From Pseudomonadota bacterium (lineage in GTDB: Bacteria; Pseudomonadota; Gammaproteobacteria; Steroidobacterales; Steroidobacteraceae), in the NCBI GenBank assembly GCA_018241505.1, contig JAFEDS010000021.1, positions 1-64,000 on the forward strand: a stretch of DNA of 64,000 nucleotides, given 5' to 3'. Numbering within the stretch: the stretch's first letter is position 1; each line of letters begins with the position of its first letter. Shown here piece after piece: positions 32,161 through 50,750 of the stretch. The notes under the pieces were generated by a model, which ran no database searches, was not told where the DNA came from, and worked only from the letters and a program-made list of their open reading frames with translations. The position numbers and the translations under genes were made by a program.

Positions 32161-33458
32161 CCCTTTTTATCCATCGCCAGCGTGGCGCCCGAGGGTTGCG
32201 TGGTGGCACGCAACTTCTTGGCAACCAACTCCGCTTCCCGCATCGCCCGTAACACGTTGCCACCCGTCACCTTCACCAGGTCATCGTGTGACCAACCGCG
32301 GCGGGCCAACTCCGCGATCAGCGCAGGATACTTGTCGACAGCGTCGAGGCCCTGAGGGGCCTCCGGGATCCCGTCGAAATCCGACCCAAGGCCAACACAG
32401 TCCTTGCCCGCCACCTTGGCGATATGCTCGACATGGTCCGCCACCATGCTGAGGGTGACCACGGGTTTGGGGTGCGACGCGAGCCATTGAGCGTAGGCCG
32501 CCTTGGCCCGATCCGGCTGTCCAATGTAGAGGCCGCCGAAGGGAGGCGTCTGCTCGCGGGCCTTTTCCGCCACCTCTTCGGCATCCCAGCGGGCCCGTTC
32601 CTGTGACACATACCCCGGGAAAAAATTGACCATGACGACGCCGCGATTTTTAGCGACCAGCGCCAGTACGTCATCCGGCACATCGCGGGGGTGATCAATC
32701 AATGCCCGGGCGCCCGAATGCGAGAAGATGACAGGCGCCTGGGTGACCGCCAGCGCATCCTTCATGGTCTTGGGCGAAACGTGGCTGAGATCCACCAACA
32801 TGCCCAGCCGATTCATTTCCGTGACCACGACGCGGCCAAAAGCCGTAAGGCCATTGTGGGCCGGTGCCTCGGTCGCCGAGTCGGCCCACGCCGTATTCGT
32901 TGCATGGGTGAGCGTCATGTAGCGCGCACCCATGTCGTAGAACTGCCGCAGGGCAGCCAGCGAGTTGCCGATCTGATGGCCGCCTTCCACCCCCATCAGG
33001 GAAGCGATGCGGTGTGCATGCTCGATCCGCACCACGTCCGCGGCCGTGTAGGCCATTTCGAAATCGCTCGGATAGCGCGCCACCATGCGCTTCACCAGGT
33101 CGATCTGCTCGATTGTGGCCGTGATCGCCGCGGCATCCTGCAACTCGGTGGGCACGAAGACTGACCAGAACTGCGCACCTACTCCCCCCGCCCGCAGACG
33201 TGGAATATCAGTCATCAAGGGCACCTGATCCGGTGGGGCTTTCGGGCCGGGCGGCAGGTGCGAGGTGTCCTTGGAGAGGTCAATAGCGTCGAGGTTGGAG
33301 GCGAAGCGCTCGCGAATTTCCCACGGCAGGTCATTGTGACCATCGATCACCGGGCTGTCCGCCAGCACCTTGGCTACATCCACCGCCGGAGCGGCCGCTT
33401 CAGCGACCGCGATTGAGCCCAGCAGACCTGCGAGAATCACCAGTTTGATGTGTTGCAT
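32157..33458 (-). CDS. exported membrane dipeptidase (peptidase family M19)
   Basis: The 433-residue protein has a signal peptide ([19 protein letters not shown]) and a zinc amidohydrolase barrel of the renal dipeptidase type. H41 and D43 in [16 protein letters not shown], the bridging glutamate in GVEGGHQIG, and histidines in [11 protein letters not shown] and FSHSGARA are the expected metal ligands. It hydrolyses dipeptides, often with D-residues at the C-terminus, in the periplasm. Its 3' end overlaps the convergent FMN dehydrogenase by four bases. The upstream MFS gene lies on the same strand only 19 bases away. Confidence 0.93.
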
Positions 33459-33477: not shown

Positions 33478-34596
33478 CTACGCGCTGGCCGCTAGTGGCT
33501 GGGTACGCCTCAGCCGCAGATACACGCTCGCATAACTCAGCAGCGAGCCGACGGCGAACAGCGCAACTACGCCCAGCATTTGCGCAAATCCGAGCTGCTG
33601 GTCCAGCAAAGTTCCCGCCAGGAAGGGACCGGCGCTCTGTCCGATGCCCTGGGCGGCCGGTATCAGGGCCACGTGGCGGCCCGAAGGGTCGATGCCCGTC
33701 AGCGTGCTGAGCTGATAGACGCTCGCCATTGACCACACCTCAAAAAATATCAAGACGCCCGAGATGTAGGCTGGAACCGAGAGACTGACAGCCCAGACCG
33801 CATACACGCCAATCATCACAATGATGGCGCCGAGCTGCGGGCGGTGTTGTCCCCAACGGCGGCCCAGTGCATAGGCGAGCATCGAGCCCGTGAGGCTGAA
33901 CAGGTTGCACACAGTCAGTGTGTTCGAAATGCTGTTCTCGGTCATTCCGACCGACAGGCCGATCCGCTCCGCGTAGGCGTAAAATGCGCTGGCGGCAACA
34001 CAAAACAACACGACGCCCAGCAGGCAAGCCCAAGCCAGCGGCGCCGCGCTCGTGGCGGGCGCCGGATCGGCAGCGCTCGTTTCAGCCAGTCCCCTGGGAA
34101 TGCGCGCAATCAACAGGGCAGGCGGCAGGAAAAGCAAACCCAGCACCGCGTAGATTCCTCTGGCGTGCCAGGCGGCCACGACGTCCGGAATGAGCCACAG
34201 CTCCAGAGAGTTCGCGATCACCAGAATGACCACGAAGATGCTGAAGTTGCGTGCGGACTGCTTTGTGAGTGAGAGCGCGGCGATGGCGGCGGAGTAGCAG
34301 ATACCGCTGCCGACTCCGGTGAGCAGGCGAATCGCGCAGAACGAAGCGAAGGAAGTGATGCCCAGAGTGGTGCCATTGCCGGCCAGCGCGATCGCAATGC
34401 CCACGGCGGCGAGTACGCGATAGGAAGCCCATCGGCCCAACACCGACACGCTGACCGAGCCCAGCAGCATGCCGGCATTCTCCGCGGCGCCGATCCAACC
34501 TATCTGCGGGTTGCTGAACCCATACTCATCGGCCAGCGCGCCGAGAATGAGCGGCAGCCCGAGATACACTCCATAGGCTGCCACGCACGCGAACAT
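33478..34596 (-). CDS. MFS transporter
   Basis: The 372-residue protein has about eleven or twelve membrane segments and a degenerate MFS motif A. The ATG at 34596 lies within the first helix; in-frame hydrophobic sequence continues about eight codons upstream (IAVGAC) without any ATG, GTG or TTG, so the true start may be a rare codon or the first helix is short. It is too far from well-known subfamilies to name a substrate. It follows the TonB receptor gene on the same strand and precedes the M19 dipeptidase gene, so the three may form one uptake-and-hydrolysis transcript. Confidence 0.8.
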   Translation of the reverse strand: MFACVAAYGVYLGLPLILGALADEYGFSNPQIGWIGAAENAGMLLGSVSVSVLGRWASYRVLAAVGIAIALAGNGTTLGITSFASFCAIRLLTGVGSGICYSAAIAALSLTKQSARNFSIFVVILVIANSLELWLIPDVVAAWHARGIYAVLGLLFLPPALLIARIPRGLAETSAADPAPATSAAPLAWACLLGVVLFCVAASAFYAYAERIGLSVGMTENSISNTLTVCNLFSLTGSMLAYALGRRWGQHRPQLGAIIVMIGVYAVWAVSLSVPAYISGVLIFFEVWSMASVYQLSTLTGIDPSGRHVALIPAAQGIGQSAGPFLAGTLLDQQLGFAQMLGVVALFAVGSLLSYASVYLRLRRTQPLAASA

Positions 34597-36949: not shown

Positions 36950-36992
36950 GAGTCCTCCAAGTTATTTTCGCGTTATCAAATGATGCTAGCAG

Positions 36993-37023
36993 ACATGATC
37001 ATGGGTGTAAATCGTGATCACAG
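36993..37023. promoter_or_regulatory. paired TGATCA operator 1 (TonB receptor side)
   Basis: Two TGATCA cores, at 36996-37001 and 37015-37020, are separated by exactly 13 bases (centres 19 bp apart). The left one sits in the palindrome CATGATCATG, the right one in GTGATCAC. The site lies in the 159-base divergent gap, on the side of the TonB receptor gene. The same architecture recurs at three other promoters in this window. Confidence 0.75.
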
Positions 37024-37076
37024 ATGCGATCTTGGGTCACAGCGCCGCAGTGTTGATTCCGCAAGCCGGGTAGTGC

Positions 37077-37107
37077 ATGTGATCAAAGAATGGGTGTATG
37101 ATCACGG
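37077..37107. promoter_or_regulatory. paired TGATCA operator 2 (hyuA side)
   Basis: TGATCA cores at 37080-37085 and 37099-37104 are again 13 bases apart (centres 19 bp). The right core overlaps the -10-like hexamer TATGAT and lies five bases before the hyuA ATG, so a bound protein would block the promoter or initiation. Confidence 0.75.
37097..37102 (+). promoter_or_regulatory. -10-like TATGAT of hyuA, leaderless start predicted
   Basis: TATGAT ends six bases before ATG 37109, so transcription would begin at or next to the start codon. There is no Shine-Dalgarno sequence. The spacing is identical at 47047-47052 before the FAD oxidoreductase gene. I see no good -35 match. Confidence 0.5.
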
Positions 37108-37108
37108 A

Positions 37109-39220
37109 ATGGAAAAGCTGACGAGTCGACAGACGGGTGCCGGCGGCTACCGCATCGGCATCGACACCGGGGGCACGTTCACTGATGTCGTGGTCGGAGA
37201 CGACACCGGCATTCTGAGTGTGGGCAAGGCATTGACGACGCGGGAGCGCATATCCCGGGGCCTGCTCGAGGGCCTCGCGGTCGCCGCGAAACCGCTCGGC
37301 ATGGATGTACGAACCCTGCTGCAACGGACAGCGGTGTTCATCTACGGGTCCACCCGCGCCACCAATGCCATTCTCGAGGGTAAGACAGCGCGCACCGCGT
37401 TGCTGGTCACCGCGGGATTCCCGGACATCCTGGTCCGGCGCGAGGGAGGTAAGACCAATCCCTGGGATTACTCTAAGGATTATCCCGAGCCGTATGTGCC
37501 GCGGCAGCTCACCTTCGAAATCCGGGAGCGCATGACCGCCGAAGGCGTCGCCGCGGTTGCGTTCGACGAAGCGGCGGCGCTGGAAGTTATTCGCAAGCTG
37601 AAGTCACAGCGCATCGAAGCCGTCGCAGTGTGCTTCCTGTGGTCGATTGCCAATCCGGCGCATGAGTTGGCAGTCGGCAGGTTGCTCGAGCGCGAACTGC
37701 CCGGAGTTCCTTATACGTTGTCGCACCAGGTAAATCCCATCGTGCGCGAGTACCGGCGTGCCTCGTCAGCTTCAATCGATGCGTCGCTCAAACCCTTGAT
37801 GCAGCACCATCTGCGTGAGATGGAGACTGATCTGCGCGCGGCGGGCCTCGAAGGCGAGCTGCTGCCTGCCATCTCGCTCGGCGGGGTGATGCATATAGAA
37901 GGAGTCATCAACCGGCCCATTCACATGGTGCGGTCCGGGCCCTCGCTGGCACCGATTCTGGGCCAGGTCACGGGCGCTGCGGAAACCGGGGCCACCGAAG
38001 TCATTGTCTGCGATACGGGAGGCACCAGTTTCGACGTCAGCCTGGTTCGCGACGGCCGGCCCGTGTTTGGGAGAGATACCTGGCTCGGCCCCCGCTACAC
38101 GGGGCATCTCACAGGTCTGTCGTCCGTCGACGCGCGCAGCATTGGTTCGGGTGGCGGTTCCATCGCCCGGATCGACTCGGGCGGATTGCTTTGTGTGGGC
38201 CCGGAGAGTGCGGGCGCGGACCCGGGGCCGGCGTGTTATGGCCGAGGGGGGACTCATGCGACGGTGACCGATGCCGCCCTCGTGTTGGGATATCTGGACG
38301 CCGAGTATTTCAATGGCGGCCGGATGAAGTTGTACACGGACGCCGCGCGCAGAGTGATCGGGCGCCTGGCCCAGGAGCTCGGCAAAAGCGTCGAGGACAC
38401 CGCCGCCGGGATCCTGACGGTCGCCAGCGAGCACATGGTGGCAGCCATCAAGGAAATCACCATCAACGAAGGCGTCGACCCGCGTGACAGCCTGCTGATG
38501 GCCGGTGGCGGCGCCGCAGGCCTCAACATTGTGCCGATCGCTCATGAGTTGGGTTGTGCCCAGGTGCTCGTGCCGCGTATGGCCGGTGCGCTCAGCGCCT
38601 GTGGTGCGCAGTACACCGATGTGGTGACGGAGTTCAGTACCAACCAGGTGACGCAGTCGGATCAATTCGACTTTGACGCGGTCAACCAGGCGTTGTCCGG
38701 CCTCGAAACCTCCATGAAGGACTTCGAGGCAAGCCTGCGCGCCCGCGGCATCGAGAAGTTCCGCTTCGAGTTCTTTGTCGAGGCGCGCTACCAGTACCAG
38801 GTCTGGGAGCTCGAAGTACCCTTGGCGAAGCCGCGCTTCGCGGCGGCGGCGGATGTCGCTGCCGTGGTGCGCGCGTTCCATGCCGCCCACGAGTCGATTT
38901 TCGCGGTGTCGGAAACGGACCGGCACGTCGAGTTTATTCAGTGGAAGGGACGCGTCACCGGTGAGCTGAGCCGGCCGCCATTGAAGCCGATGGCGACTGC
39001 CAGCGGCGCCACGCCCGTACCGAGCCGCAAGGCGCACGCCTATTTCACCGCCACCGGCACGGTCGAAATTCCTCTCTATCGGGGGGAGACCCTCGGGCCC
39101 GGTACCGAGATCGCAGGTCCAGCCCTGATTGTCGAGCCGATCACCACCCTGGTGTTGTATCCCGGCAGCCGCGCTAGCGTCACGAAGTTCAACAACTACA
39201 TGGTGGATGTACCGTCATGA
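37109..39220 (+). CDS. hyuA: hydantoinase/oxoprolinase subunit A (HyuA family)
   Basis: The 703-residue protein is the ATP-binding, acetate-kinase-like subunit of the hydantoinase/5-oxoprolinase/acetone carboxylase superfamily. It starts with the phosphate loop GIDTGGTFTDVVVG at residues 13-26. It then shows YGSTRATNAILEG, LSHQVNPIVREYRRASSASI, CDTGGTSFDVSL, and GPESAGADPGPACYGRGG, all typical of HyuA. The family uses ATP to open cyclic amides (hydantoins, 5-oxoproline, lactams) or to carboxylate ketones. ATG 37109 is chosen because the family N-terminus begins there; open frame further upstream runs antisense to the TonB receptor. The gene overlaps hyuB as ATGA. hyuA is a family name here, not a proven substrate. 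Confidence 0.92.
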   Translation: MEKLTSRQTGAGGYRIGIDTGGTFTDVVVGDDTGILSVGKALTTRERISRGLLEGLAVAAKPLGMDVRTLLQRTAVFIYGSTRATNAILEGKTARTALLVTAGFPDILVRREGGKTNPWDYSKDYPEPYVPRQLTFEIRERMTAEGVAAVAFDEAAALEVIRKLKSQRIEAVAVCFLWSIANPAHELAVGRLLERELPGVPYTLSHQVNPIVREYRRASSASIDASLKPLMQHHLREMETDLRAAGLEGELLPAISLGGVMHIEGVINRPIHMVRSGPSLAPILGQVTGAAETGATEVIVCDTGGTSFDVSLVRDGRPVFGRDTWLGPRYTGHLTGLSSVDARSIGSGGGSIARIDSGGLLCVGPESAGADPGPACYGRGGTHATVTDAALVLGYLDAEYFNGGRMKLYTDAARRVIGRLAQELGKSVEDTAAGILTVASEHMVAAIKEITINEGVDPRDSLLMAGGGAAGLNIVPIAHELGCAQVLVPRMAGALSACGAQYTDVVTEFSTNQVTQSDQFDFDAVNQALSGLETSMKDFEASLRARGIEKFRFEFFVEARYQYQVWELEVPLAKPRFAAAADVAAVVRAFHAAHESIFAVSETDRHVEFIQWKGRVTGELSRPPLKPMATASGATPVPSRKAHAYFTATGTVEIPLYRGETLGPGTEIAGPALIVEPITTLVLYPGSRASVTKFNNYMVDVPS

Positions 39221-41001
39221 GCCAGGAAAAGAAGCCGCGGAAGCTCGATCAGGTGGTGGTCGCCGTGCTGGCCAACCGGCTGGATTCCATCGTCCGGGAG
39301 ATGACCAACACCCTGTTCAGGACGGGGCGCTCGGCCATCCTGAACACCGCGAAGGATTTCTCCTGCTCCATTGTGACAGCCGACAACCAGTTGCTGTCCT
39401 CGGCGGACGGCTTGCCGATTCACGTGCTGGGAGGTGGCCGCCAGACCGAATCCATGCAGGAGTTTCATCCGGACCTGGCCGCCGGGGATGCCTATCTCCA
39501 CAACGACCCCTACCTCGGCAACACGCACACGGCGGATCACACCATCCTCGTGCCCGTGTTTGTCGGTGGCCGCCACATGTTTACCGTGGCGGCGAAAGCA
39601 CACCAGGCTGACTGCGGAAACTCGGATCCCTCCACCTACATGCCTTTTGCCAAGGACGTGTACCAGGAGGGGGGTCTCAACTTCCCCTGTGTCCGCATCC
39701 AACGCGACTATGAGGATGTGGGCGACATCATTCGGATGTGCCGCCGCCGCATTCGCGTGCCGGAAGTCTGGTACGGCGACTATCTGGCGGCTCTTGGCGC
39801 CGCGCGGATTGGTGAGCGGCGCTTGCAGGCGCTGGTGGAGCGCTACGGCGCTGAAACGATAGCGACGTTCGTGCGCGAGTGGCTGGACTATTCCGAGCGG
39901 CGCATGACTCACGCCATCAAGAGCCTGCCTGCCGGCAAGCTGGTGGCGGAGGGCCGTCACGATTCATTGCCCGGATTGCCGCACGGAGTTCCGGTCAAGG
40001 TGAAAGTGGAGGTTGACCCGGGCGAGGGCCTCGTAACGGTCGATCTGCGCGACAACATCGACTGCGTCGCTGTTGGAGTCAATCTCTCGCAAACGTGTGC
40101 GACTGCCGGTGCGCTCATCGGCGTGCTCAACTGCATCGACCCGTCCGTTCCGCGTAACGAAGGTAGTTTTCGCCGGATCCGGATCCTGCTGAAAGAAAAC
40201 TGTGTCGTGGGCATCCCGCGATTCCCGGCATCGACCTCCATGGCCACTTCGAATGTCACCAACCGCCTGATCAATGCAACTCAGCGCGCCTTCAGCATGC
40301 TGGGCGACGGCTATGGCCTCGCGGAGGGAGCTGCCTCCATGGGCGCGGGCTTTGGCGTGGTGTCAGGGTTGGATCGGCGCCATGGCAACGAGCCGTATGT
40401 CAACCAGATGGTCATCGGCAACAACGGCGGCCCGGGCGCGCCCGGGTGCGACGGCTGGGTGACCTACTGCATGCCGGACGCCGCCGCTTCGGTGATGGTC
40501 GACAGCGCGGAGATCATTGAACAGAAATATCCGCTCCTGATTCGCTCGCTGCGTCTCGTCGAAGACAGCGGCGGTGCAGGCCGATTCCGGGGCGGTCCCG
40601 CCGGCGAGATCGTGTACGGCCCACTGCACGATCCCATGACGGTGGCCTATTTCGCGGAAATGCACGAAGACCCGCCGAAGGGCACGCGGGGTGGCGGCGC
40701 AGGGTGCCGGTCCGAGGTAACCAGGATCTCACGCGAAGGCCGTGAGGAGCCCTTGCCGCCGATCGGGCTCGTGGAGTTGCAGCCCGGGGAGTTCATTCGC
40801 GGGCGCGAGTCCGGTGGCGGTGGCTACGGCAATCCGCTCGAGCGCGATCCCAACCGGGTGCGTCACGATGTCCTCGAGGGTTGGATCTCGCTGCCCGCGG
40901 CACGTAGCACCTATGGCGTGATCTTGCAGGAGGGCAGCCTCGATGTGGACAGTGCGGCAACGAGCGCACTACGCCGCGAGCTGGCTGGACAGCGATCCTG
41001 A
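39217..41001 (+). CDS. hyuB: hydantoinase B/oxoprolinase subunit (HyuB family)
   Basis: The 594-residue protein is the partner subunit of HyuA. Typical blocks are LANRLDSIVREMTNTLFRTGRSAILNT cut into short family signatures, SCSIVTADNQLLS, HNDPYLGNTHTADHTILVPVF and AKAHQADCG, and FPASTSMATSNVTNRL in the second half. These residues form the metal site and the amide-hydrolysing or carboxylating centre of the complex. Its ATG overlaps the hyuA stop, giving equal expression. Its own TGA overlaps the proposed CTG start of the downstream permease. The length is normal for bacterial HyuB, so the pair is separate rather than fused as in eukaryotic 5-oxoprolinase. Confidence 0.92.
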   Translation: MSQEKKPRKLDQVVVAVLANRLDSIVREMTNTLFRTGRSAILNTAKDFSCSIVTADNQLLSSADGLPIHVLGGGRQTESMQEFHPDLAAGDAYLHNDPYLGNTHTADHTILVPVFVGGRHMFTVAAKAHQADCGNSDPSTYMPFAKDVYQEGGLNFPCVRIQRDYEDVGDIIRMCRRRIRVPEVWYGDYLAALGAARIGERRLQALVERYGAETIATFVREWLDYSERRMTHAIKSLPAGKLVAEGRHDSLPGLPHGVPVKVKVEVDPGEGLVTVDLRDNIDCVAVGVNLSQTCATAGALIGVLNCIDPSVPRNEGSFRRIRILLKENCVVGIPRFPASTSMATSNVTNRLINATQRAFSMLGDGYGLAEGAASMGAGFGVVSGLDRRHGNEPYVNQMVIGNNGGPGAPGCDGWVTYCMPDAAASVMVDSAEIIEQKYPLLIRSLRLVEDSGGAGRFRGGPAGEIVYGPLHDPMTVAYFAEMHEDPPKGTRGGGAGCRSEVTRISREGREEPLPPIGLVELQPGEFIRGRESGGGGYGNPLERDPNRVRHDVLEGWISLPAARSTYGVILQEGSLDVDSAATSALRRELAGQRS

Positions 41002-42416
41002 AGAAGACGCTCAAACGCCGGCATCTTTTTACGCTCGGCGTCGGGACGATCGTCGGTGTTGCGTGGCTGGTGGTGCTCGGGTCCGTGCTCGTTTCCGCCG
41101 GGCCGCTCGGTGCGACGATCGGTTTTGTGGTGGGCGCCGGGATCATGATTCCCATCGGCTTGTGCTACGCGGAGTTGACCGGAGCTCTGCCGCATGCCGG
41201 CGGTGAGATCGTCTATGCGTACACGCTGTTTGGAGTCCGCTGGGCCTACGTGGCGGGTGTTTGTCTCGCATTGATCTACGTGATCAACTGCGTATTTTTC
41301 GCGATTTCAGTGGGGTGGCTGCTCAATGCGTTGCTTCCGGGAATCGAAGGATCCGCGCTCTATACCGTGTTGGGCGCGACGGTGCACGGCGGCGACATCG
41401 TGGTCGGCGTCGCGGGAACACTCATCCTGTTGGTCGCCCATTGGCGCGGTGCGAAAGATGCCGCGCGGCTGCAGGATCTCGCGACTTATCTCCTGCTCGC
41501 GGCAACGTGTATTTTTGTTGCGATCGGCATAGGGCAGGGACACGCCGCCAACCTGCAGCCGCCCATCGCGCCTTCCGATTGGGCCGGCGGCTATGGCGGA
41601 ATACTGGCGGTCCTGGCGGTCACTCCCTATTTCTTCGGCGGATTCAACACCATTCCGCAGGCGGTGGCGGAGCTCGAGGACGAGCGCGATCGCCGCCGGA
41701 TTGCCAGCATGTTGGCAGGCTGCATCCTCACGTCGCTGGTGTTTTATTGCCTGGTGCTGCTCGCGGTGTCGATGGTCTTGTCGCGCGATCAGTTGCTGAA
41801 GTTCGAGTTGCCGGTGGCGGAAGCCTTCCGCGCTGCCTTCCACTCGGCGCTGATTACCGACATTGTGCTCGTGGGCGGACTGCTGGGGCTGATTGCGGTC
41901 TGGAATGCGCTGTTTTTCGCGGCTACTCGCGTGTTGTATGCGCTGGGCCGGGCGCGGCTCCTGCCGCCGATCCTGGGCGACCTGGGTGCCGGTGGACGTG
42001 CGCCCACCACCGCGATCGGCGTCGTCACGGCACTCAGCATCGGCGGGCTGTTCCTCGGTAAGGGCGCGCTGCTGCCGGTAGTCAATGTCACTTCGACTCT
42101 ATTTGCCCTGATGTATGTGATTGTCAGCCTGGGCGTCCTGCGCCAGCGGCGACTCACCACCGGGCCGGTCGCGGGTTACCGCGTGCCCGGCGGCCTGCTG
42201 TTGGTATGGGCCGCCGTGCTGTTCTCTTTTTACCTGCTGGTGTTGTCCCTGGTCCAGCAGTGGATGGATGCCGGCCGCCGGCTGCCTGCCGAATGGGCGC
42301 TGTTGGTCGGCTTCGGCGCGCTGTCCTGGCTGTTGTGGCTGGGCCTGCGCAGCTCGCGCGACAGTCTGAGCACCGGCCAGCGCCGGCGCATCATCCTGGA
42401 GGAAGGGCCGGCCTGA
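40998..42416 (+). CDS. APC-superfamily amino acid/amine permease, probable CTG start
   Basis: The protein has about twelve membrane segments and APC features (GVGTIVGVAWLVVLGS in helix 1, CYAELTGALPHAGGEIVYAY in helices 2-3, FFGGFNTIPQAVAELEDER in the middle). The first ATG/GTG/TTG in frame is GTG 41070, which would delete half of helix 1. The frame is open upstream, and LKKTLKRRHLFTLGVGT encoded from 40998 restores a normal N-terminus of 472 residues in all. CTG 40998 overlaps the hyuB TGA as CTGA, which fits coupled initiation at a rare codon. It probably imports the HyuAB substrate. Confidence 0.82.
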   Translation: MKKTLKRRHLFTLGVGTIVGVAWLVVLGSVLVSAGPLGATIGFVVGAGIMIPIGLCYAELTGALPHAGGEIVYAYTLFGVRWAYVAGVCLALIYVINCVFFAISVGWLLNALLPGIEGSALYTVLGATVHGGDIVVGVAGTLILLVAHWRGAKDAARLQDLATYLLLAATCIFVAIGIGQGHAANLQPPIAPSDWAGGYGGILAVLAVTPYFFGGFNTIPQAVAELEDERDRRRIASMLAGCILTSLVFYCLVLLAVSMVLSRDQLLKFELPVAEAFRAAFHSALITDIVLVGGLLGLIAVWNALFFAATRVLYALGRARLLPPILGDLGAGGRAPTTAIGVVTALSIGGLFLGKGALLPVVNVTSTLFALMYVIVSLGVLRQRRLTTGPVAGYRVPGGLLLVWAAVLFSFYLLVLSLVQQWMDAGRRLPAEWALLVGFGALSWLLWLGLRSSRDSLSTGQRRRIILEEGPA

Positions 42417-42444
42417 GCCGCTTGCAGCCAACCAACATTTCACC

Positions 42445-42473
42445 TTGACGTGATCACAAAATGATGTTGTGAT
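42445..42473 (+). promoter_or_regulatory. promoter candidate of the BKACE gene
   Basis: TTGACG at 42445-42450 and TGTGAT at 42468-42473 are separated by 17 bases and match the sigma-70 boxes at five and four of six positions. Both overlap the operator pair, so a bound repressor would occlude polymerase. Confidence 0.5.
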
Positions 42474-42479
42474 CACAAC
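42448..42479. promoter_or_regulatory. paired TGATCA operator 3 (BKACE gene)
   Basis: TGATCA cores at 42451-42456 and 42470-42475 are 13 bases apart (centres 19 bp). The second core is the centre of the perfect 14-base palindrome GTTGTGATCACAAC, the best-conserved version of the half-site in the window, with the TGT...ACA shape common to GntR-family operators. Confidence 0.8.
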
Positions 42480-42492
42480 AGGAATCAACAAC

Positions 42493-43455
42493 ATGCCAAA
42501 CCTGACCTGGCGTTACGCCGACACCTTCGAGTACATGGAGCACACCCGCGCGGGCTTCCCGCCGGCCATGATCTGCGTTGCCTGCAACGGCGGCATCCAG
42601 GGAAAGGAGACTCACGCCGGGTTGCCGGAAACACCGCAGGAAATAGCGGAATCCGTGCAGGCCGCCTACGAGGCGGGAGCGAGCATGGTGCACGTGCACG
42701 CGCGCGACTCGCGCGATTTCACCCAGGGCGCGCGCCGTATCGATGAGTGGCTCGAAGTCAACAGCCGGATCCGCGCGCTGTGTCCCGATATCATCATCAA
42801 CAACACCACCGGCGGCGATCTCACCATGAGCATGGAGGAGCGGCTGTCCTGCCTGGACGCCGGCCCCGAGATCGCCTCCCTCAATCTGACCCCTGACATG
42901 AGCCGCTTCACCATGAAAGCGCGCCGTGCGCCGTTGCCGCATCCGCGTCCGGAGACCGAAGTGGATGCGTGCATACCCTTCACCTACGGCCTGGTCGAGA
43001 AGTTCGCAGCCGAGATGCAAAAGCGCGGCATCAAGCCGGAGATGGAGACCTATCACACCGGTGGCGCGTGGGTCATGCGCGACCTCATCGAGCGCAAGCT
43101 GGTCGAGCCTCCCTACCTCATCCAGACGGTCATGGGCGCGCAGACCGCCAGCTATCCAACACCCGAACACGTCATCAACCTGTTACGCGAGGTTCCCGAC
43201 CAGACGGTTTGGCTGTGCTCGGGTATCGGGCCGTTTCAACTGCCACTGACCACATTGGCATTGCTCATGGGCGGCCATCCCCGTGTGGGTCTCGAAGACA
43301 ACCTCTACTACAGCCGCGGACGTCGTTTCAAAGACAACGCCGAGGCTGTGAAGCGCGTAGTGCGCATTGCCAGCGAGCTCAACCGCCCCGTTGCGACGCC
43401 CGCTGAATCTCGCGCCTTGCTCGGCCTGCCGGCGAAGCCGGCCCAGGCGGCCTGA
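42493..43455 (+). CDS. BKACE-family beta-keto acid cleavage enzyme (DUF849)
   Basis: The 320-residue TIM-barrel enzyme carries the zinc ligands H67 and H69 in MVHVHARD and E268 in GLEDNLYY, the pattern of Kce, the 3-keto-5-aminohexanoate cleavage enzyme. The family condenses a beta-keto acid with acetyl-CoA and splits it into acetoacetate and a new acyl-CoA. The specificity for the variable part cannot be read here. AGGAA lies nine bases before ATG 42493; the GTG-type start eight codons earlier would fall inside the operator. A beta-transaminase gene follows 29 bases downstream, which could supply the keto acid. Confidence 0.92.
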   Translation: MPNLTWRYADTFEYMEHTRAGFPPAMICVACNGGIQGKETHAGLPETPQEIAESVQAAYEAGASMVHVHARDSRDFTQGARRIDEWLEVNSRIRALCPDIIINNTTGGDLTMSMEERLSCLDAGPEIASLNLTPDMSRFTMKARRAPLPHPRPETEVDACIPFTYGLVEKFAAEMQKRGIKPEMETYHTGGAWVMRDLIERKLVEPPYLIQTVMGAQTASYPTPEHVINLLREVPDQTVWLCSGIGPFQLPLTTLALLMGGHPRVGLEDNLYYSRGRRFKDNAEAVKRVVRIASELNRPVATPAESRALLGLPAKPAQAA

Positions 43456-43484
43456 GCGTCGACCGACCCGGAGCAGACGATCGA

Positions 43485-44813
43485 ATGAATACGGCCACTC
43501 AAACTTCCCCGACCCTCGAGGCGGCTGTCGCGGCCGCGGAGGCCCGCTTTGCCGCTGCGAACCCCAGGAGCCGCGCCCGGCACGAGCAGGCGTGCGCCGT
43601 GCTGCCGGGCGGGCATTCGCGCCAGACCCTGTTTTTCGCCCCATTTCCCCTGACCATGCAAGGTGGGCACGGCGCGCGCATCACCGACCTCGATCAGCAC
43701 GAATACCTGAACCTGGTGGGCGATTTCGCGGCCGGTGTGTTCGGCAGCACCTGTGAGCCCATTCAGAAGGTGGTGAGTGAGACCTTGCGCGGCGGCATTT
43801 CGTTGAGCGGCCTGAACCTGCACGAGTCGGAGCTGGCGCGTTTGATTTCCCAGCGCATGCCCTCGATAGAGCAGGTGCGGTTCTGTAATTCCGGATCCGA
43901 GGCGTGCCTGTATGCCGTGCAGATTGCGCGCCATGCCACCGGCCGCTCCAAGCTGTTGGTATTCAACGGGTGCTATCACGGCGGCTTCATGATCTACGGC
44001 GACAAGGACCCGCCGTTGAGCATTCCATTCCCGCTCGTCAAGGCCACCTACAATGATGTTGAAGGCACCCGCAAGCTGATTCGTGCCCACGCCGCCGAGC
44101 TGGCGGCCGTCGTTGTCGAGCCCGTGATGGGATCCGGCGGCGCAATTCCCGGCACGCGCGAATTTCTGCAGATGCTGCGGGATGAGACCCGGCGCGCCGG
44201 CCCGATGTTGATATTCGACGAGGTGATGACTTCGCGGCTGGGGCCCGGCGGGGTTCAGGGCTTGCTGGGAATCCAACCTGACCTGACCACGCTCGGCAAG
44301 TTCTGGGGCGGCGGTTTCGCGTTCGGTGCCTTCGGCGGTGCGTCCGAGTTGATGCGCCACATGGACGTGAGCCGCGGCGGCCTGTTGTCACAAGGCGGCA
44401 CTTTCAACAACAACGTGGTGACCATGGCCGCGGGGCTGGTCGGCGCACGCGACGTATACACGCCGGAGGCCTGTCGTTCGCTGAATTCGCGCGGCGACTG
44501 GCTTCGTGAGCAACTGAACGGACTCGGTGCGAAGTCCGGCATTGCCTTGCAGGCCACGGGGATTGGCGGTGTGCTCAACACGCATTGGACGGTGGGGCCG
44601 ATCACGCATCCGGGGCAAGTGGTGCCCATCCATGCGCCGGTACGGCGGTTGTTCCAACTCGAGATGATTGAAAGCGGCTTCTTCGTGGCGCAACGCGGCA
44701 TGATCAACCTGTCGCTGCCGGTGGAGCAGGGGGATCTGGCGGCGTTTGTGCGCGCCGCCGGTGAATTCCTGACACGTCATTCAGCATTGCTGCCACGAGC
44801 GGTTGTCCACTAG
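43485..44813 (+). CDS. class III aminotransferase, beta-amino acid transaminase-like
   Basis: The 442-residue PLP enzyme belongs to the glutamate-1-semialdehyde aminomutase-like group. The lysine is K272 in TLGKFWGGG, D245 in FDEVMTSRLGP binds the pyridine ring, and GTFNNNVVTMAAG marks the phosphate site. LPGGHSRQTLFFAPFPL, with R46, and the short C-terminal LLPRA recall the beta-phenylalanine aminotransferase of Variovorax more than true GSA mutases (recall only, not aligned). Such enzymes turn beta-amino acids into beta-keto acids. It lies directly after the BKACE gene, whose substrates are beta-keto acids, and this juxtaposition is the main support for the role. Confidence 0.88.
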   Translation: MNTATQTSPTLEAAVAAAEARFAAANPRSRARHEQACAVLPGGHSRQTLFFAPFPLTMQGGHGARITDLDQHEYLNLVGDFAAGVFGSTCEPIQKVVSETLRGGISLSGLNLHESELARLISQRMPSIEQVRFCNSGSEACLYAVQIARHATGRSKLLVFNGCYHGGFMIYGDKDPPLSIPFPLVKATYNDVEGTRKLIRAHAAELAAVVVEPVMGSGGAIPGTREFLQMLRDETRRAGPMLIFDEVMTSRLGPGGVQGLLGIQPDLTTLGKFWGGGFAFGAFGGASELMRHMDVSRGGLLSQGGTFNNNVVTMAAGLVGARDVYTPEACRSLNSRGDWLREQLNGLGAKSGIALQATGIGGVLNTHWTVGPITHPGQVVPIHAPVRRLFQLEMIESGFFVAQRGMINLSLPVEQGDLAAFVRAAGEFLTRHSALLPRAVVH

Positions 44814-44879
44814 CCCGCCGTGGCCGAGCGCGAAAAGAACCCGGGCTGCGCGCGGCCAGTGCCGCGCCAATAGACGACA

Positions 44880-46250
44880 ATGACCGACGCACCCCGCCTC
44901 CGCGGTAACATCGGTCGCTTTCAGTACCTCGCCCTGGGTTTCGGCACGATGATCGGCTCCGCGTGGGTCATCCTGCTCGGCGACTGGTTGGGCAAGGCTG
45001 GTCCCGGCGGCGCGGTCCTCGGCTTTCTGGCCGGTGGCGCGGTCGTCGTGTTGGTGGGCACCTGCTATGCGCAGCTTGCGGCACATCTTCCCGAGGCCGG
45101 CAGCGAGTTCGTTTATGCGCGGCGCGTGTACGGGCGGGGCCTGGCATTCACCGTCGGCTGGTTTCTGATCCTCTACCTGTTGAGTGTCACGGTTTTCGAA
45201 GCGCTGGCATTCGCCTGGATCGTGGAAACAGTCCTGCCCGGTGCTGCGCCGTTGCCCGTCGGTATCGGCGGCGCGATCGTCATCGCCACCCTCAACTTTC
45301 GCGGCGCGCGGCTGGCGGTCATATCGCACACGTTTCTCACCTACAGCTTCTTTGCTGTGGTGGTATTCATTCTGCTGCTGTTACTGGCGAACGGCTCGGC
45401 TCACAACGCGGCACCGCTGTTTGGCGCTACCAACGGTCGCAACTGGTACCTGGGAAGCGGCGCCATCTTCGCGTTCTGCGCCTATGCGTTGAACGGTTTT
45501 CAGACCATTCCGCATGCGATCGAAGAGCGCTCCGGCAATATCAGCCTGGATGCCATTGGCTGGATCATCATCGGCTCCATTGGCGCGGCGGCTGCATTTT
45601 ATTGCCTGGTTGTCATAGCGGCCGCGGTCATCGTGCCCTGGCAGGGGCTCGTGGCCGCGCCACTGCCCATGGTAGCCGCGGTACGCAGCTTGCCGCACGG
45701 GCAGGTATTCGCGCTGGTGTTGCTGGTAGCGACGGCGGCGTCGCTCCTGAAGGCCTGGAATGGCGTTTTCATGATGGCGGTGCGGCTGTTGGTTGCGATG
45801 GCACGCGCCGGCTGCGTGCCGGGCGTGTTTGCACGCTTGCATCCCCGGTTTCAGTCGCCGGCGCCGGCGGTTCTGGCCGCCGGGACATGCAACATCGCCG
45901 GCATTTTCCTGGGCAAGGGCGCCATCGAGCCCATCACCGACATGAGCGCGATGGTGCTGACCCTGACCTATGCGATGTGTTGTTGGACGGTGCTGCGGCT
46001 CCGGCGCCGAGGCTGTCTCGTCGCCGGATCGGGCGCGGCCTCCTGGCTCGTTGTGCTCGCGTTACTCGGGAGCGCTTTGATGGCCGCCTGTGCCTTCCTG
46101 ACTCCTTTCTGGCAACAACCCGGCTTCCCCCTGGAGTATCAGTTACTCGCCGCCTGGGGCGTCCTGGGTCTCGTGGTGTGGCGCTACGCGCTCACCCGGC
46201 CGTCAGGTCCAGACTCTCCCAGTACCCCGGCACCTTGGTCAGCCCCATGA
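44880..46250 (+). CDS. APC-superfamily permease
   Basis: The 456-residue membrane protein has about twelve helices. It shows the APC helix 1 pattern LALGFGTMIGSAWVILLGDWL, CYAQLAAHLPEAGSEFVYARR, and FCAYALNGFQTIPHAIEER in helix 6, similar to the permease at 40998 but clearly diverged. It probably takes up an amino acid or related amine. Its last 59 bases overlap the 3' end of the convergent GntR gene. It follows the aminotransferase by 66 bases and is likely part of the operator-3 transcript. Confidence 0.88.
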   Translation: MTDAPRLRGNIGRFQYLALGFGTMIGSAWVILLGDWLGKAGPGGAVLGFLAGGAVVVLVGTCYAQLAAHLPEAGSEFVYARRVYGRGLAFTVGWFLILYLLSVTVFEALAFAWIVETVLPGAAPLPVGIGGAIVIATLNFRGARLAVISHTFLTYSFFAVVVFILLLLLANGSAHNAAPLFGATNGRNWYLGSGAIFAFCAYALNGFQTIPHAIEERSGNISLDAIGWIIIGSIGAAAAFYCLVVIAAAVIVPWQGLVAAPLPMVAAVRSLPHGQVFALVLLVATAASLLKAWNGVFMMAVRLLVAMARAGCVPGVFARLHPRFQSPAPAVLAAGTCNIAGIFLGKGAIEPITDMSAMVLTLTYAMCCWTVLRLRRRGCLVAGSGAASWLVVLALLGSALMAACAFLTPFWQQPGFPLEYQLLAAWGVLGLVVWRYALTRPSGPDSPSTPAPWSAP

Positions 46251-46947
46251 GATCCTTGCTCATGGCTTCCTGGGCCGCGAGCGGATCGCGCGCCTGGAAT
46301 GCCGCCAGCAAGCGGTCATGATTCTCCGCGGCCACCTTGCGGAACACGCCGCCTTTGGTCGTCATGAACGGCACCATGTTGGCCACCAGCGGCGCCATTC
46401 GCAGCCACAGCATCTGGATCAAGGGAATCAGCATCGCGTTGTCGGCAATGCGATAGATCTCGAAATGGAATGCCATGTTGAGTGACAGGTGCGTGCGGGT
46501 ATCGCCCTTGGCAACACTTTGCTCCATCCCCTGCTGCAAGGCGCGCAGATGTTCGATCTGCACGAGCGTGATGTTGCGGGCGGCCAGGGCGGCGGCCCGG
46601 CCTTCCAGGTCCTCGCGCAGCTCGAGGATCTGCTCGACCTGCCGGCGCGTCAGCACCGGCACGCGGGCCGAGCGGTTGGGTAATGACTCGAAGGCGCCCT
46701 CCGAAGTGAGGCGCCGCAGCGCCTCGCGTACCGGCATCTCGCCAATCGAAAGCTCTTTGGCGAGCGAACGCAGGGTCACCACCTCACCCGGCCGGAACTG
46801 GCCGGCGAGGACCGCTTCCTTCAGAACCCCATACGCGCGGATGTGCGCGGCCTCGCCCGGGGCGGCCCGCTCGGCACCCGCAAGCGCGGCGCGCTTCGTA
46901 ACGGCTTTTCTTCCAGAGGTCTTTTTTCGGGGGTTCGTCGCTTGCAT
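46192..46947 (-). CDS. GntR-family regulator, FCD (FadR/VanR) subgroup
   Basis: The 251-residue protein has a basic N-terminal extension (residues 1-30), a GntR winged helix at about 33-100 (LKEAVLAGQFRPGE, LAKELSIGEMPVREALRRL), and an all-helical FCD ligand domain at about 110-240 with likely metal histidines in NMAFHFEIYR and AENHDRLLAAF. It lies amid the genes preceded by the TGATCA pairs and is divergent from one of them, so it is the best candidate to bind those operators, probably as a repressor released by a pathway acid. Its 3' end overlaps the permease gene by 59 bases. Confidence 0.92.
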   Translation of the reverse strand: MQATNPRKKTSGRKAVTKRAALAGAERAAPGEAAHIRAYGVLKEAVLAGQFRPGEVVTLRSLAKELSIGEMPVREALRRLTSEGAFESLPNRSARVPVLTRRQVEQILELREDLEGRAAALAARNITLVQIEHLRALQQGMEQSVAKGDTRTHLSLNMAFHFEIYRIADNAMLIPLIQMLWLRMAPLVANMVPFMTTKGGVFRKVAAENHDRLLAAFQARDPLAAQEAMSKDLMGLTKVPGYWESLDLTAG

Positions 46948-47026
46948 GCGCGGGGCTTTTCCTTCGGCGGTGCGAAGGATGCAAGCCTATGCTGCGCGAC
47001 CCGGGTCATACAACTGTTTTCCGTGA

Positions 47027-47057
47027 TTTTGATCACAGCTAGATGTTATGATCACAA
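47027..47057. promoter_or_regulatory. paired TGATCA operator 4 (gntR / FAD oxidoreductase)
   Basis: TGATCA cores at 47030-47035 and 47049-47054 are 13 bases apart (centres 19 bp), in the 111-base gap between the divergent gntR and FAD oxidoreductase genes. It could serve both autoregulation and control of the oxidoreductase. The right core overlaps TATGAT, as at operator 2. Confidence 0.78.
47047..47052 (+). promoter_or_regulatory. -10-like TATGAT of the FAD oxidoreductase gene, leaderless start predicted
   Basis: TATGAT ends six bases before ATG 47059, the same spacing as at hyuA. No ribosome-binding site is present between them, so a leaderless mRNA is predicted. A clear -35 box is not visible. 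Confidence 0.5.
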
Positions 47058-47058
47058 A

Positions 47059-49377
47059 ATGAATATTCCATCATCTGCCCGCGTCGTCGTGATCGGCGGC
47101 GGCATCGCCGGTTGCAGCGCCGCCTGGCACCTGGCATCCCTCGGGGTCCGCGATGTGGTGCTGCTGGAGAGGGCGGCGCTCAGCTCCGGCACCACGTGGC
47201 ATTCCACCGGGAACATGGAGACCTACCGCCCGGACCCGGTGATTTTCGAGATGGTGCGTTATGCCCTGGAGACCTATCCGCGGATTGCCGCGGAAGCCGG
47301 CCAGGACATCGGCTGGCGCAGTGTCGGCCGGGTGATGTACACCGACCGCGAGTCTCGTTGGGAGTCGATGCGGACTCTGCCGGAGCTGGGGCAGGCTCGT
47401 GGCATCGAGCTCGAGCTGCTGACGCCCGCCCAGGTCCAACAACGCCTTCCCATCATTGCCACCGCCGAACTGCTCGGCGGCGTCTGGGTGCCGAGCGACT
47501 CCAGGGTCAATCCAACTGATGCCGTGATGGCATTCGCGGCCGCGGCCAAGGCACGTGGTGTGGGCATCTATCAGGATGTGCCGGTCACCGGAATCGAGCT
47601 GCGTGACGGCAGGGTGCAGGGCGTTGTTACCGCCCATGGCACGATCGGCTGCGACACCGTAGTGGTCGCCGCGGGGCTGTGGTCCGGCGATCTCCTCGAG
47701 AGCTGCGGAATTCAACTGCCTTTGCACGCGCTCGAGCACCAGTATCTGATCACCCAGCCGCTGGGCATTGATCGCAACCTGCCGCTGTTCCTATCATTGG
47801 ACGATCAGCTCTACGGCCGCGAAGAGGTGGGTGGCATCATGGTCGGCAGTCTCGATGACGGCGCGATCCCGTTGTCCACCCGGCAACTGCCGCAGAATTT
47901 CTCATTTTCACTGCTGAGTGAACGCTGGCCGCAGTTCGAGCCCTACATGGCCACGGCGATGCGGCGCTTTCCGTTACTGCAGAACGCCGGCATCAAGATG
48001 TTGCTGAACGGGCCGGAGAGCTTCACGCCCGATGGCCAGATGTTGCTCGGCCCCGTGCCGGGCGCGACCGGGTTGTTCAGCGCCTGTGGATTCAACTCCA
48101 ACGGGATGGCCCTGGCACCGGCGGCGGGGCGGTTTGTTGCGGAGTGGATCGTCGAAGGCGCACCCAGTGTCGAAGTCGCCCAACTCGATGTACGGCGCTT
48201 TGGCGCCGCGCAGGCGAGCGAACCCTATATGAGGGACCGGGTCACGGAAATACCCGGTTACCACTGCCGGATTCACGCGCCGGACGCCGATTATGCAACC
48301 TCGCGCGATGTGCTTCGCTCGCCGTTGCACAATGAGCTTGCCATGGCGGGCGCCCGGTTTACGGCGGTCAACGCGTGGGAGAGGCCGTTGTGGATCGCAA
48401 CTTCCTCTGATTGGACGACCGCGGTCGCCGCCGAGGTTGCGGCCGCTGAGGAATCCGTTCTATTGATCGATCGGTCCGCGGACGCAAAGCACCTGCTCAC
48501 AGGCTCGCAGGTCGATGAATGGCTGCCGCTCAACGTCACGACGTTGTTGCCGTCAAGCAAGACGGCTGCCGTGTTGACACCGCTATTGGGCCGGCGCGGA
48601 CAGATCGAAGCGTTGGTGCGGACGCTGCGTTGGACAGATGATGCAACGATGTTGATCGCCGGCCCGGAGCAAAGTACGCGACTGCAGGAATGGCTGCGCC
48701 TGGCGGACCTGCCGGCAGGTAGTCGCCGCGAGGACGTCACGACCGGATACGCGATGCTGGAGCTGCACGGCATGCGGCGTGCGGCGCTGCTCAACGCGTT
48801 GGGCGTGCGCCCGAAAACTGTCGACCCATGTTGGATCGGAGCCGTTTCGGTCACTGTGCGTGACGATCCGGCCAATGATTCAACTCTGCTGATTACCGCC
48901 AGCAAGGGTGCTGCTGTGTTGTGGCAAAACCTGTTGACGGTCGGCAAGGCGTTCGGATTGCGCGTGGGTGGCCATTGGGCGCAGGAGGCAGCCCGAATCC
49001 AACGCGGTGTCCCTGGATTTGGCCGGGAGGCAACGCCGAATCGGCTTGCCGCGGAGCTGGGCGGCCAGATGCTGGCGGCGAGCGCCGCGGGCCGCGCCAA
49101 GGCGGACCCGGTGGGCAATCACCGCAAGCGGGTCCTGAGAGCCTTCTCCAGTCCGATCCCGTTGTTGGGCTTTGGCGCCCAGGAAGTTGTTTTGCAAAAG
49201 GGACGGACCGTGGGCGAGCTGACTTCGCGAGTGCGCCTGCCGGGCTGGTCCAGTGCGCTGCTGCTGGCACTGCTCGATCCTGACAGTTGGAATGGCAACG
49301 CCATTGAAACGGTTGCGGCCGGCCGGCGGTGGCCGCTGGTTCCCAGGCCGACGCCATGGTCAGCAAGGTTGAGCTGA
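47059..49377 (+). CDS. FAD-dependent oxidoreductase with GcvT-like C-terminus (dimethylglycine dehydrogenase-like)
   Basis: The 772-residue protein has a FAD Rossmann loop VVVIGGGIAGCSAAWHL at about 9-25 and the flavin-site stretch SSGTTWHSTGNM, whose histidine corresponds to the covalent flavin attachment in dimethylglycine dehydrogenase. The DAO fold runs to about 385. Beyond about 410 it resembles the aminomethyltransferase (GcvT) module of sarcosine/dimethylglycine dehydrogenases, but its folate-site sequence looks degenerate. It should oxidise a secondary or tertiary amine in the cytoplasm. ATG 47059 is fixed by the family N-terminus. It faces gntR across operator 4, so it belongs to the same regulon. 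Confidence 0.88.
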   Translation: MNIPSSARVVVIGGGIAGCSAAWHLASLGVRDVVLLERAALSSGTTWHSTGNMETYRPDPVIFEMVRYALETYPRIAAEAGQDIGWRSVGRVMYTDRESRWESMRTLPELGQARGIELELLTPAQVQQRLPIIATAELLGGVWVPSDSRVNPTDAVMAFAAAAKARGVGIYQDVPVTGIELRDGRVQGVVTAHGTIGCDTVVVAAGLWSGDLLESCGIQLPLHALEHQYLITQPLGIDRNLPLFLSLDDQLYGREEVGGIMVGSLDDGAIPLSTRQLPQNFSFSLLSERWPQFEPYMATAMRRFPLLQNAGIKMLLNGPESFTPDGQMLLGPVPGATGLFSACGFNSNGMALAPAAGRFVAEWIVEGAPSVEVAQLDVRRFGAAQASEPYMRDRVTEIPGYHCRIHAPDADYATSRDVLRSPLHNELAMAGARFTAVNAWERPLWIATSSDWTTAVAAEVAAAEESVLLIDRSADAKHLLTGSQVDEWLPLNVTTLLPSSKTAAVLTPLLGRRGQIEALVRTLRWTDDATMLIAGPEQSTRLQEWLRLADLPAGSRREDVTTGYAMLELHGMRRAALLNALGVRPKTVDPCWIGAVSVTVRDDPANDSTLLITASKGAAVLWQNLLTVGKAFGLRVGGHWAQEAARIQRGVPGFGREATPNRLAAELGGQMLAASAAGRAKADPVGNHRKRVLRAFSSPIPLLGFGAQEVVLQKGRTVGELTSRVRLPGWSSALLLALLDPDSWNGNAIETVAAGRRWPLVPRPTPWSARLS

Positions 49378-49458: not shown

Positions 49459-49535
49459 CTGCGGTGGTAGGTAGGGCGCCTGCGGCGCATTAGCCGCGCG
49501 CAGCCCGGGTCCTTTTGCGCTCTGGGGGCTTTGAA

Positions 49536-50750
49536 GTGTCAACAGGTCCTGGTCCTGCTCCTCTGACTCGAGCCGTTGGGTTCTGGGGGCTCGCCGCCGC
49601 GATTGTCAACATTACCATCGGCGGAAGTATTTTCGCCTTGCCCGCTACGTTGTATCTGACACTGGGCCCGGCGGCACCGCTTGCCTACATTCTCGGCGCG
49701 GCACTGTTTGCTCCCATCGTCCTGTGCTTTGCCGCCGCGGGCAGCCGCTTCACCACCACGGGCGGACCTTATCGCTATGTCGAATCGGCCTTCGGGAAGG
49801 TCCCCGGCCTGTTGGTGGCGGCGCTGTTCTGGATATCCAATGTCGCAGGAAGTGGCAGCATGGCCGCTATTCTCGTGAACCAGGCCACGCACATCCTGCC
49901 TGTCCTCGAACAACCTCTGCCGCGCGCCGCGTTTCTGGCCGTGGTCTATTCGGTCCTCTTCACCTTGAATGCGCGCGGCGTGAAGTTGGGTGCACGGGCC
50001 ATTGTCGCATTCGCCGCGGCGAAGATGATTCCGCTGCTGTTGCTGGCAGCGGGCGGTCTCATGTTGGTGCATCCTGCGAACCTGCAGATTGTCACGGCTC
50101 CCGATGCCCGATCCCTGGGCCGGGCATTGGTGGTTGCCGTGTTTGCTTATTCCGGCATCGAGACGGCGCTGGCGCCGTCAGGTGAGCTGCGCGATCCCGC
50201 ACGGGTCGTGCCCGGAGCGGCCCTGGTTGGTGTTGCCATTGTCGTAGTGTTGTATGTCAGCCTGCAGGTCGCGGCCCAGGGTGTTCTGGGCCCCGCGCTG
50301 GCCGGCCATGACGCGCCTCTGTCGGCCGTTGCCGAGCGGCTTCTGCCAGGATCCGCGGGGCTCGTGATTGTGACCGCTTCCGTCTCCCTCATTGGCGTGC
50401 TTCTGGGCGATCTGCTCGGTTCCTCGCGGCTGCTGTATGCGCTGGCCCAGGATGGGCTGCTACCGTCGGCTCTGGCGTCGGTCTCCGCCAGGTACCGCGT
50501 TCCCACGCGGGCGATATTCACGCATGCGGCGGTGGGTTGGGTGCTGGCGGCCTCGGGTACATTCAACACCCTGGCGATGGTTTCGGGCGCTGCGTTCTGC
50601 GTCGTCTATATCGCCTGTTGCGCGGCCGCATGGCGCCTGCAGAGCACCGGAGCCACGGAAACTTCAGCGCCGTTCCGCTTGCCCGGCGGGGGACTGATCC
50701 CCGCCGTCGGAATCGCCTGTTTGCTGCTGGTGCTATTGAGCCTCGCATAA
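49536..50750 (+). CDS. APC-superfamily permease
   Basis: The 404-residue membrane protein has about twelve helices, with the APC helix 1 motif NITIGGSIFALPATLYL, FTTTGGPYRYVESAFGKVPGLL, and AYSGIETALAPSGELRDP in helix 6, which resembles amino acid or polyamine transporters. GTG 49536 is chosen because GGGGG lies eight bases before it; a TTG seven codons earlier lacks such a site. It is the third APC permease of the region and differs from the other two, so it may carry another intermediate or an unrelated amino acid. Confidence 0.87.
   Translation: MSTGPGPAPLTRAVGFWGLAAAIVNITIGGSIFALPATLYLTLGPAAPLAYILGAALFAPIVLCFAAAGSRFTTTGGPYRYVESAFGKVPGLLVAALFWISNVAGSGSMAAILVNQATHILPVLEQPLPRAAFLAVVYSVLFTLNARGVKLGARAIVAFAAAKMIPLLLLAAGGLMLVHPANLQIVTAPDARSLGRALVVAVFAYSGIETALAPSGELRDPARVVPGAALVGVAIVVVLYVSLQVAAQGVLGPALAGHDAPLSAVAERLLPGSAGLVIVTASVSLIGVLLGDLLGSSRLLYALAQDGLLPSALASVSARYRVPTRAIFTHAAVGWVLAASGTFNTLAMVSGAAFCVVYIACCAAAWRLQSTGATETSAPFRLPGGGLIPAVGIACLLLVLLSLA

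Follow-up and report, generated by a model that had tools for sequence, protein, structure and literature searches.

Four paired sites of the form TGATCA-N13-TGATCA mark a gene cluster in a bacterium of the family Steroidobacteraceae (assembly GCA_018241505.1, contig JAFEDS010000021.1); the window, i.e. the whole stretch of DNA that was analysed, comprises the first 64,000 nucleotides of this contig. The four pairs are probably the operators of one local regulon under a GntR/FCD repressor encoded in the cluster itself, with one dimer on each core and neighbouring dimers lying next to each other on the promoters of the TonB receptor gene, hyuA, the gene of a beta-keto acid cleavage enzyme (BKACE) and an FAD oxidoreductase gene. 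The double operators very probably represent a real local control system and not a product of chance. The features concerned are the following.

36983..37011, minus strand: promoter-like TTTACA-17-TAGCAT of the TonB gene, from a promoter scan, overlapping the operator
36996..37020, minus strand: operator pair of the TonB receptor gene, exact match to TGATCA-N13-TGATCA
37034..37039, minus strand: degenerate third core of the TonB operator, GGGTCA (read on the strand of the gene, TGACCC), one further 19-bp step along from its neighbour
37080..37104, plus strand: operator pair of hyuA, exact match, with the hyuA ATG at 37109
42451..42475, plus strand: operator pair of the BKACE gene, exact match
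46192..46947, minus strand: GntR/FCD transcription regulator of 251 amino acids (Pfam), the proposed binder of the pairs
47030..47054, plus strand: operator pair of the FAD oxidoreductase gene, exact match, with the FAD ATG at 47059

An earlier note on this DNA, made from its letters alone, had placed the pairs at 36996, 37080, 42451 and 47030, each in front of a gene of the cluster. All four are recovered as exact matches, and the positions of the open reading frames (ORFs) confirm that they precede the TonB receptor, hyuA, BKACE and FAD/GcvT oxidoreductase genes; one pair heads each of the four inferred transcription units. The note called the operators identical, which is right for the 12 core bases but not for the 13-bp spacers; since these spacers differ, the pairs are not copies of a repeat. 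The 14-base palindrome GTTGTGATCACAAC that it singled out is present at 42466-42479, and the pair at 47030-47054 is the sole exact one in the gap between the FAD gene and gntR. Its placement of both cores on one face of the helix is only approximate, as 19 bp make 1.81 helical turns (10.5 bp each), which leaves the second core ∼70 degrees short of the face of the first. The operators, short flanks included, have GC contents of 34-43% versus 64% for the cluster. The four pairs of the window compare with a mean of 0.00 in 100 dinucleotide shuffles, and single TGATCA hexamers are mildly enriched (24 versus 14.8 expected).

Frequent occurrence of the pair outside the cluster, which the earlier note had named as the finding that would speak against a regulon, is not seen. 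The genome (7,882,944 bases in 46 contigs, 93.9% complete, with 5.67% contamination) holds only the window's four exact pairs in its 7.88 Mb, all within 10 kb, and the reversed pattern, used as a control, has 0 matches there. Pairs with one mismatch occur at 13 other places, all within ORFs of at least 211 codons (ORFs, not gene calls), and no distant member of the regulon appears among the exact or one-mismatch intergenic sites of this genome. A looser pattern with up to two mismatches matches at 233 places, is uninformative and was abandoned.

The pairs also keep their places in relatives, whose genomes and loci are cited here by G and L numbers. Cluster loci of six genomes contain 19 independent exact pairs, before the FAD gene in 6/6, before the BKACE gene in 6/6, before hyuA in three and before the TonB gene in four. 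The TonB pair is at the same place in L053, L102 and L104, the three relatives where the gap between hyuA and the TonB gene is seen whole; absent hyuA and TonB cases go with a contig end in G584 and with other gene content in G482. The right FAD core ends 4 to 7 bases 5′ of the start codon in all six genomes (start codons as read). When the upstream regions of the FAD and BKACE genes are aligned (mean column identity 62% and 57%), the two cores are the longest invariant blocks, and the BKACE regions keep in addition a CTTGA close by the left core, on its 5′ side. Wherever two TGATCA cores lie less than 30 bp apart in the window, L052-L056 and L102, the distance is 19 bp (19/19). The flanks of the cores are symmetric, with T two bases outside in 26/38 and A two bases inside in 27/38, which argues for a dimer on each core and not for one dimer spanning both. 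At the TonB operator, a third core with two mismatches, TGACC(C/G), stands one more 19-bp step away from the gene in 4/4 genomes (window, G059, G481 and G479), and reads TGACCG in L053, L102 and L104. At the next step of the other operators, only the FAD site of the window has a comparable hexamer (CCATCA, within the FAD ORF), which is not conserved in relatives.

The 19-bp step seems to extend to two more distant loci. With a weight matrix from the close group, 19 bp comes out first among 37 spacings in 4/6 upstream regions of L057 (2/2) and L058 (2/4), whose orthologs of the regulator are 50-51% identical and whose cores have forms such as AGATCA. This suggests that the spacing is kept while the core letters drift. 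By a short ORF in L057 (9116-9159), CGATCA, TGACCA and TGATCA succeed one another every 19 bp, an arrangement like that of the TonB operator.

The presence of the pairs is tied to that of the regulator. A scan of 84,980 species genomes yields seven loci with a GntR relative, and the aligned orthologs fall into five at 68-71% identity and two at 50-51%. In a profile search, clear orthologs (E below 1e-118) occur in 8/217 genomes of the family, the next match being at 5.6e-44. At least two exact pairs on one contig are found in 6/8 of these ortholog genomes versus 0/209 of the others, a difference for which the Fisher P-value of 2e-10 is only indicative because the genomes are related. The six (G000, G059, G479, G481, G482 and G584) all have a close ortholog in the cluster, and the two genomes with diverged orthologs, G464 and G465, have no exact pair. 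Six other genomes carry two or three pairs, each on a separate contig (G005, G509, G516, G548, G598 and G612), and a scattered pair in G478 belongs to a copy of the G482 cluster that the end of its contig truncates. Wider profile searches give 7/396 genomes of the order at E below 1e-50, among which G773 is the sole one outside the family, and only the genome of the window among 398 of the phylum.

Two cases help to separate the regulator from the genes that it accompanies, the changed cluster of G482 and the single genome G773. In L052 and L105, the hyu genes and permeases 1 and 2 are not found and a different TonB gene is present; an exact pair precedes the BKACE gene and a one-mismatch pair the different TonB gene, with the same end piece in L103. 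The FAD gene of G482 is broken (L052:3750-4177), with only its first and last parts found, and its operator pair is intact. Thus, the pairs follow the GntR ortholog when the content of the cluster changes. In G773, of another family in the same order, the cluster encodes BKACE (68% identity), aminotransferase (53%), FAD (48%) and TonB (40%) proteins and similar permeases, together with a GntR protein only 38% identical, and no exact pair lies within the 40 kb fetched around it. With the same enzymes, a diverged GntR protein and no pair, this one genome makes the pair seem tied to the type of regulator and not to the enzymes. A stretch resembling CTGAGATCT, in which GATC recurs at 7 bp, is shared by two gaps of the same locus (L123:9288-9298 and 13886-13896) in this one genome.

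For distant GntR paralogs, 50 loci were fetched, five places twice, and an exact pair is near the paralog in 1/45 places, in G055. There it overlaps the 5′ end of the longest AraC ORF (L061:10067-10091), followed by a GntR/FCD gene 34% identical, and faces an ORF for an S9 peptidase with a TonB receptor beyond; it is possibly a distant relative of the same type of operator. Across the class, 99/369 genomes have at least one pair. Clustering was examined in five of them, the three with the highest counts and two with two pairs; in four the pairs are not close, the nearest on one contig being 39 kb (G369) and 50 kb (G416, same sequence twice) apart. The fifth, G118 (L068, G118:C155), has four pairs in ∼1.2 kb that are copies of a 19-bp unit and were discarded as a false positive.

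The regulator itself, which the earlier note had assigned to the GntR/FCD type, matches both Pfam families above their cut-offs (GntR, 1.1e-13, 51 bits; FCD, 2.4e-23, 83.3 bits). Its N-terminal extension of ∼36 residues is rich in basic residues; an extension of similar length exists in the five close orthologs and a shorter one in L057 and L058, with poor conservation letter by letter. In the predicted structure (pLDDT 74, pTM 0.57; low confidence at the first 29 residues and at 88-96), the C-terminal domain is all-helical, with six helices between residues 101 and 234. Six FCD helices rather than seven fit the VanR group. McbR/YncC (PDB 4p9f) is the closest solved relative both by sequence and by fold, with the VanR-type Atu1419 among the next. 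The NCBIfam model NF008504, which we take to cover McbR/YncC, scores 97.9 bits, under its curated cut-off of 225.

In the mechanism that we propose, each TGATCA core, extended by symmetric outer bases to TnTGATCAnA, would be a two-fold site bound directly by one GntR dimer. Two such dimers, or three at the TonB gene, would lie side by side 19 bp apart and probably stabilize each other. Covering the promoter, up to the start codon at hyuA and the FAD gene, they would keep the genes off until a pathway compound, bound by the FCD domain, releases them.

Several points weigh against this reading. Ortholog and cluster are found together, and co-occurrence alone cannot separate the regulator from the genes. 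The structure model has moderate scores and is silent on dimer contacts. The genome contains 15 further matches to the regulator, the next best 38% identical, and cross-talk is possible. Of the four operators, only that of the TonB gene has a sigma-70-like site in the promoter scan; hyuA, BKACE and FAD have none. In G479, hyuA has no exact pair although its gap is in view. As to the diverged loci, 2/6 regions, both in L058, show no preference for 19 bp, the regions were picked after weak pairs had been noticed there, with 2/8 dropped for a length under 60 bases, and ∼600 bp separate the L057 site at 9135 from the aminotransferase gene.

How the cores sit on the promoters bears on the strongest rival, in which promoter geometry sets the 19-bp step, with the left core by the −35 box, the right core on the −10 box and dimers that bind independently, without cooperativity. 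At hyuA, the right core overlaps TATGAT (37097-37102, read by eye), and the start codons at 37109 (hyuA) and 47059 (FAD) come six bases after a TATGAT; at the FAD gene of the six genomes this hexamer is TATGAT in five and TGTGAT in one, 6 to 9 bases from the start codon. These distances suggest that the hyuA and FAD mRNAs may be leaderless. The assignment of a −10 box under the right core with leaderless starts was read by eye, is unsupported by the promoter scan and was not retained. Geometry of this kind would agree with the overlap of the right core with TATGAT at both genes, with the conserved CTTGA that abuts or nearly abuts the left BKACE core (TTGACG at 42445-42450 abuts it in the window) and with the full palindrome that each core forms alone. 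Yet the promoter-like site of the TonB gene is placed differently, with TTTACA between the cores and TAGCAT beyond, and the step is still 19 bp; the weak third TonB core, again at 19 bp in 4/4 genomes, also argues against it. On balance, independent dimers placed by the promoter are unlikely, though they are the most serious competitor of the cooperative repressor.

Next in weight is the proposal that the protein acts at these sites as an activator or a dual regulator, which we regard as rather improbable. Activators rarely act at sites over the −10 box or abutting the start codon; here the −10 region seems to lie under the sites, which abut the start codon at hyuA and the FAD gene, and the promoter-like site of the TonB gene lies under its operator. 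On the other side, AkgR, with the same single-core motif, is termed an activator (PMC6365646). Binding of the pairs by a regulator other than the cluster GntR protein is less probable still. The assignment to this protein comes from sequence comparison, and G773 shows that such a cluster may lack the pair. Yet the GntR protein is the sole regulator among the 12 cluster proteins scanned (regulator genes elsewhere were not sought), its ortholog is in the cluster in all six genomes with clustered pairs, and a global regulator would have sites elsewhere, where no exact or one-mismatch intergenic site was found in the genome of the window. GATC occurs within every core, and pairs of GATC sites with regulatory roles are known; a switch based on Dam methylation, as in pap or agn43, is nevertheless very improbable and was rejected, the Dam family (TIGR00571) having no match in this genome, with a positive E. 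coli control and other GATC methylases not sought. Finally, chance or a repeat element can practically be dismissed: 39 pairs are scattered over 32/211 family genomes outside the six (∼0.05-0.07 per Mb, total bases estimated) and those of G118 form a 19-bp tandem repeat, but ∼0.0006 pairs are expected per 10 kb versus four found, with unlike spacers and conserved places, and uniqueness in the genome together with family-wide co-occurrence with the GntR ortholog already refutes it.

If the GntR repressor holds these sites, its likely targets are the following genes.

33478..34596, minus strand: MFS transporter (Pfam), 3′ of the TonB gene and probably in the same operon; it likewise follows the TonB gene in L060 and L102
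34661..36949, minus strand: TonB-dependent receptor (Pfam)
37109..39220, plus strand: HyuA, hydantoinase/5-oxoprolinase/caprolactamase-like subunit
39217..41001, plus strand: HyuB, hydantoinase B/caprolactamase-like subunit
41070..42416, plus strand: APC amino acid permease 1
42493..43455, plus strand: BKACE, beta-keto acid cleavage enzyme (7e-79)
43485..44813, plus strand: class III aminotransferase, whose closest solved relative is beta-phenylalanine aminotransferase (4ao9, 410 bits)
44880..46250, plus strand: APC amino acid permease 2
47059..49377, plus strand: FAD oxidoreductase fused to a GcvT-like domain, dimethylglycine dehydrogenase-like
49515..50750, plus strand: APC amino acid permease 3, 3′ of the FAD gene and without a pair of its own

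The gene order is thus hyuA-hyuB-permease, BKACE-aminotransferase-permease, gntR on the opposite strand, and FAD/GcvT oxidoreductase-permease. HyuA and HyuB resemble 5-oxoprolinase, N-methylhydantoinase and caprolactamase, and miss the curated cut-offs of caprolactamase CapA/CapB (528 and 285 bits versus 1000 each). Among solved relatives of the aminotransferase, beta-phenylalanine aminotransferase (410 bits) is followed by beta-transaminases (371 and 369) and then by a match at 237; the FAD protein is closest to dimethylglycine dehydrogenase. The genes would import and degrade a compound of the amide or lactam type: the cluster fits a route in which a lactam- or hydantoin-like substrate, deduced from these resemblances, is turned into a beta-amino acid and then, through the aminotransferase, into the beta-keto acid cleaved by BKACE. 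A gene for an M19 membrane dipeptidase (32157-33458) lies 3′ of the TonB and MFS genes; in L060 and L102, tblastn gave no match to it adjoining their counterparts.

It is tempting to join these elements in one proposal, in which the repressor works as a phased array, with a strict 19-bp palindrome step, two sites at most promoters, three at the receptor gene and contacts between dimers, the step is selected more strongly than the core letters, and the array controls a pathway, not yet described, for a lactam-like, N-methylated beta-amino acid compound. Stronger selection on the step is argued from its survival in the 50-51% identical orthologs with decayed cores. As a whole, this combined proposal is speculative and somewhat doubtful. 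Already without it, the analysis gives a regulator, its likely operator and the likely whole regulon. If binding is cooperative, the system would offer a palindrome-based design for side-by-side GntR dimers, beside NanR, and a compact switch that its genome holds nowhere else. The beta-amino acid pathway suggested by the linked genes may be found via the compound that releases the protein from DNA.

Among known systems, the target genes and operator of E. coli McbR/YncC are unlike those described here. By sequence and fold it is the best match among solved structures, with 26% identity in the fold alignment. The palindrome GTGATCAC, which has the present core, is reported for PS417_07240, from the deoxyribonate cluster of Pseudomonas simiae, and for AkgR of Rhodobacter, the former being a gntR-like regulator adjoining a BKACE gene; they differ in having one palindrome, at −47 to −40, with no second core at 19 bp mentioned in the part of the article available, and in serving another pathway (PMC6365646). 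In the FadR subfamily, the distance within double sites is almost constant in 29 of the 100 divergons that have them, which is taken as a sign of cooperativity; the consensus there is TKGT/ACMA with 2-3 nt between GT and AC (PMC4494728). The present sites do not follow this consensus, their core being TGATCA with the outer G in only 22/38 and with what would be 4 nt from GT to AC. The paper on DhdR was dropped as a precedent, TGATCA appearing there only in altered sites. Agrobacterium Atu1419, of the VanR type (PDB 6z74 and 6za3), resembles the present regulator as an FCD protein with a matching fold and 10-bp palindromes, one over a −10 box; it differs as a tetramer looping palindromes 190 bp apart, with a ATGTATACAT core and no 19-bp neighbour sites mentioned in the accessible text (PMC7797058). 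E. coli NanR is likewise a GntR-type repressor that places several dimers side by side on a repeated operator; its N-terminal extension, of 32 residues versus ∼36 here, serves the cooperative binding of three dimers, and its repeats are GGTATA and not palindromes (PMC8012715). As with NanR, at least two sites recur here at a fixed close spacing (19 bp in 19/19 close core pairs). The earlier note knew of no described operator with this exact pair: the single core is in print (PMC6365646), and the 19-bp pair was not met in the open-access literature searched, which weakly supports the absence from print of the strict paired and tripled arrangement. Collectively, the core is known, and the arrangement is a well-supported variation on a familiar type of local regulon rather than a novel sort of system.

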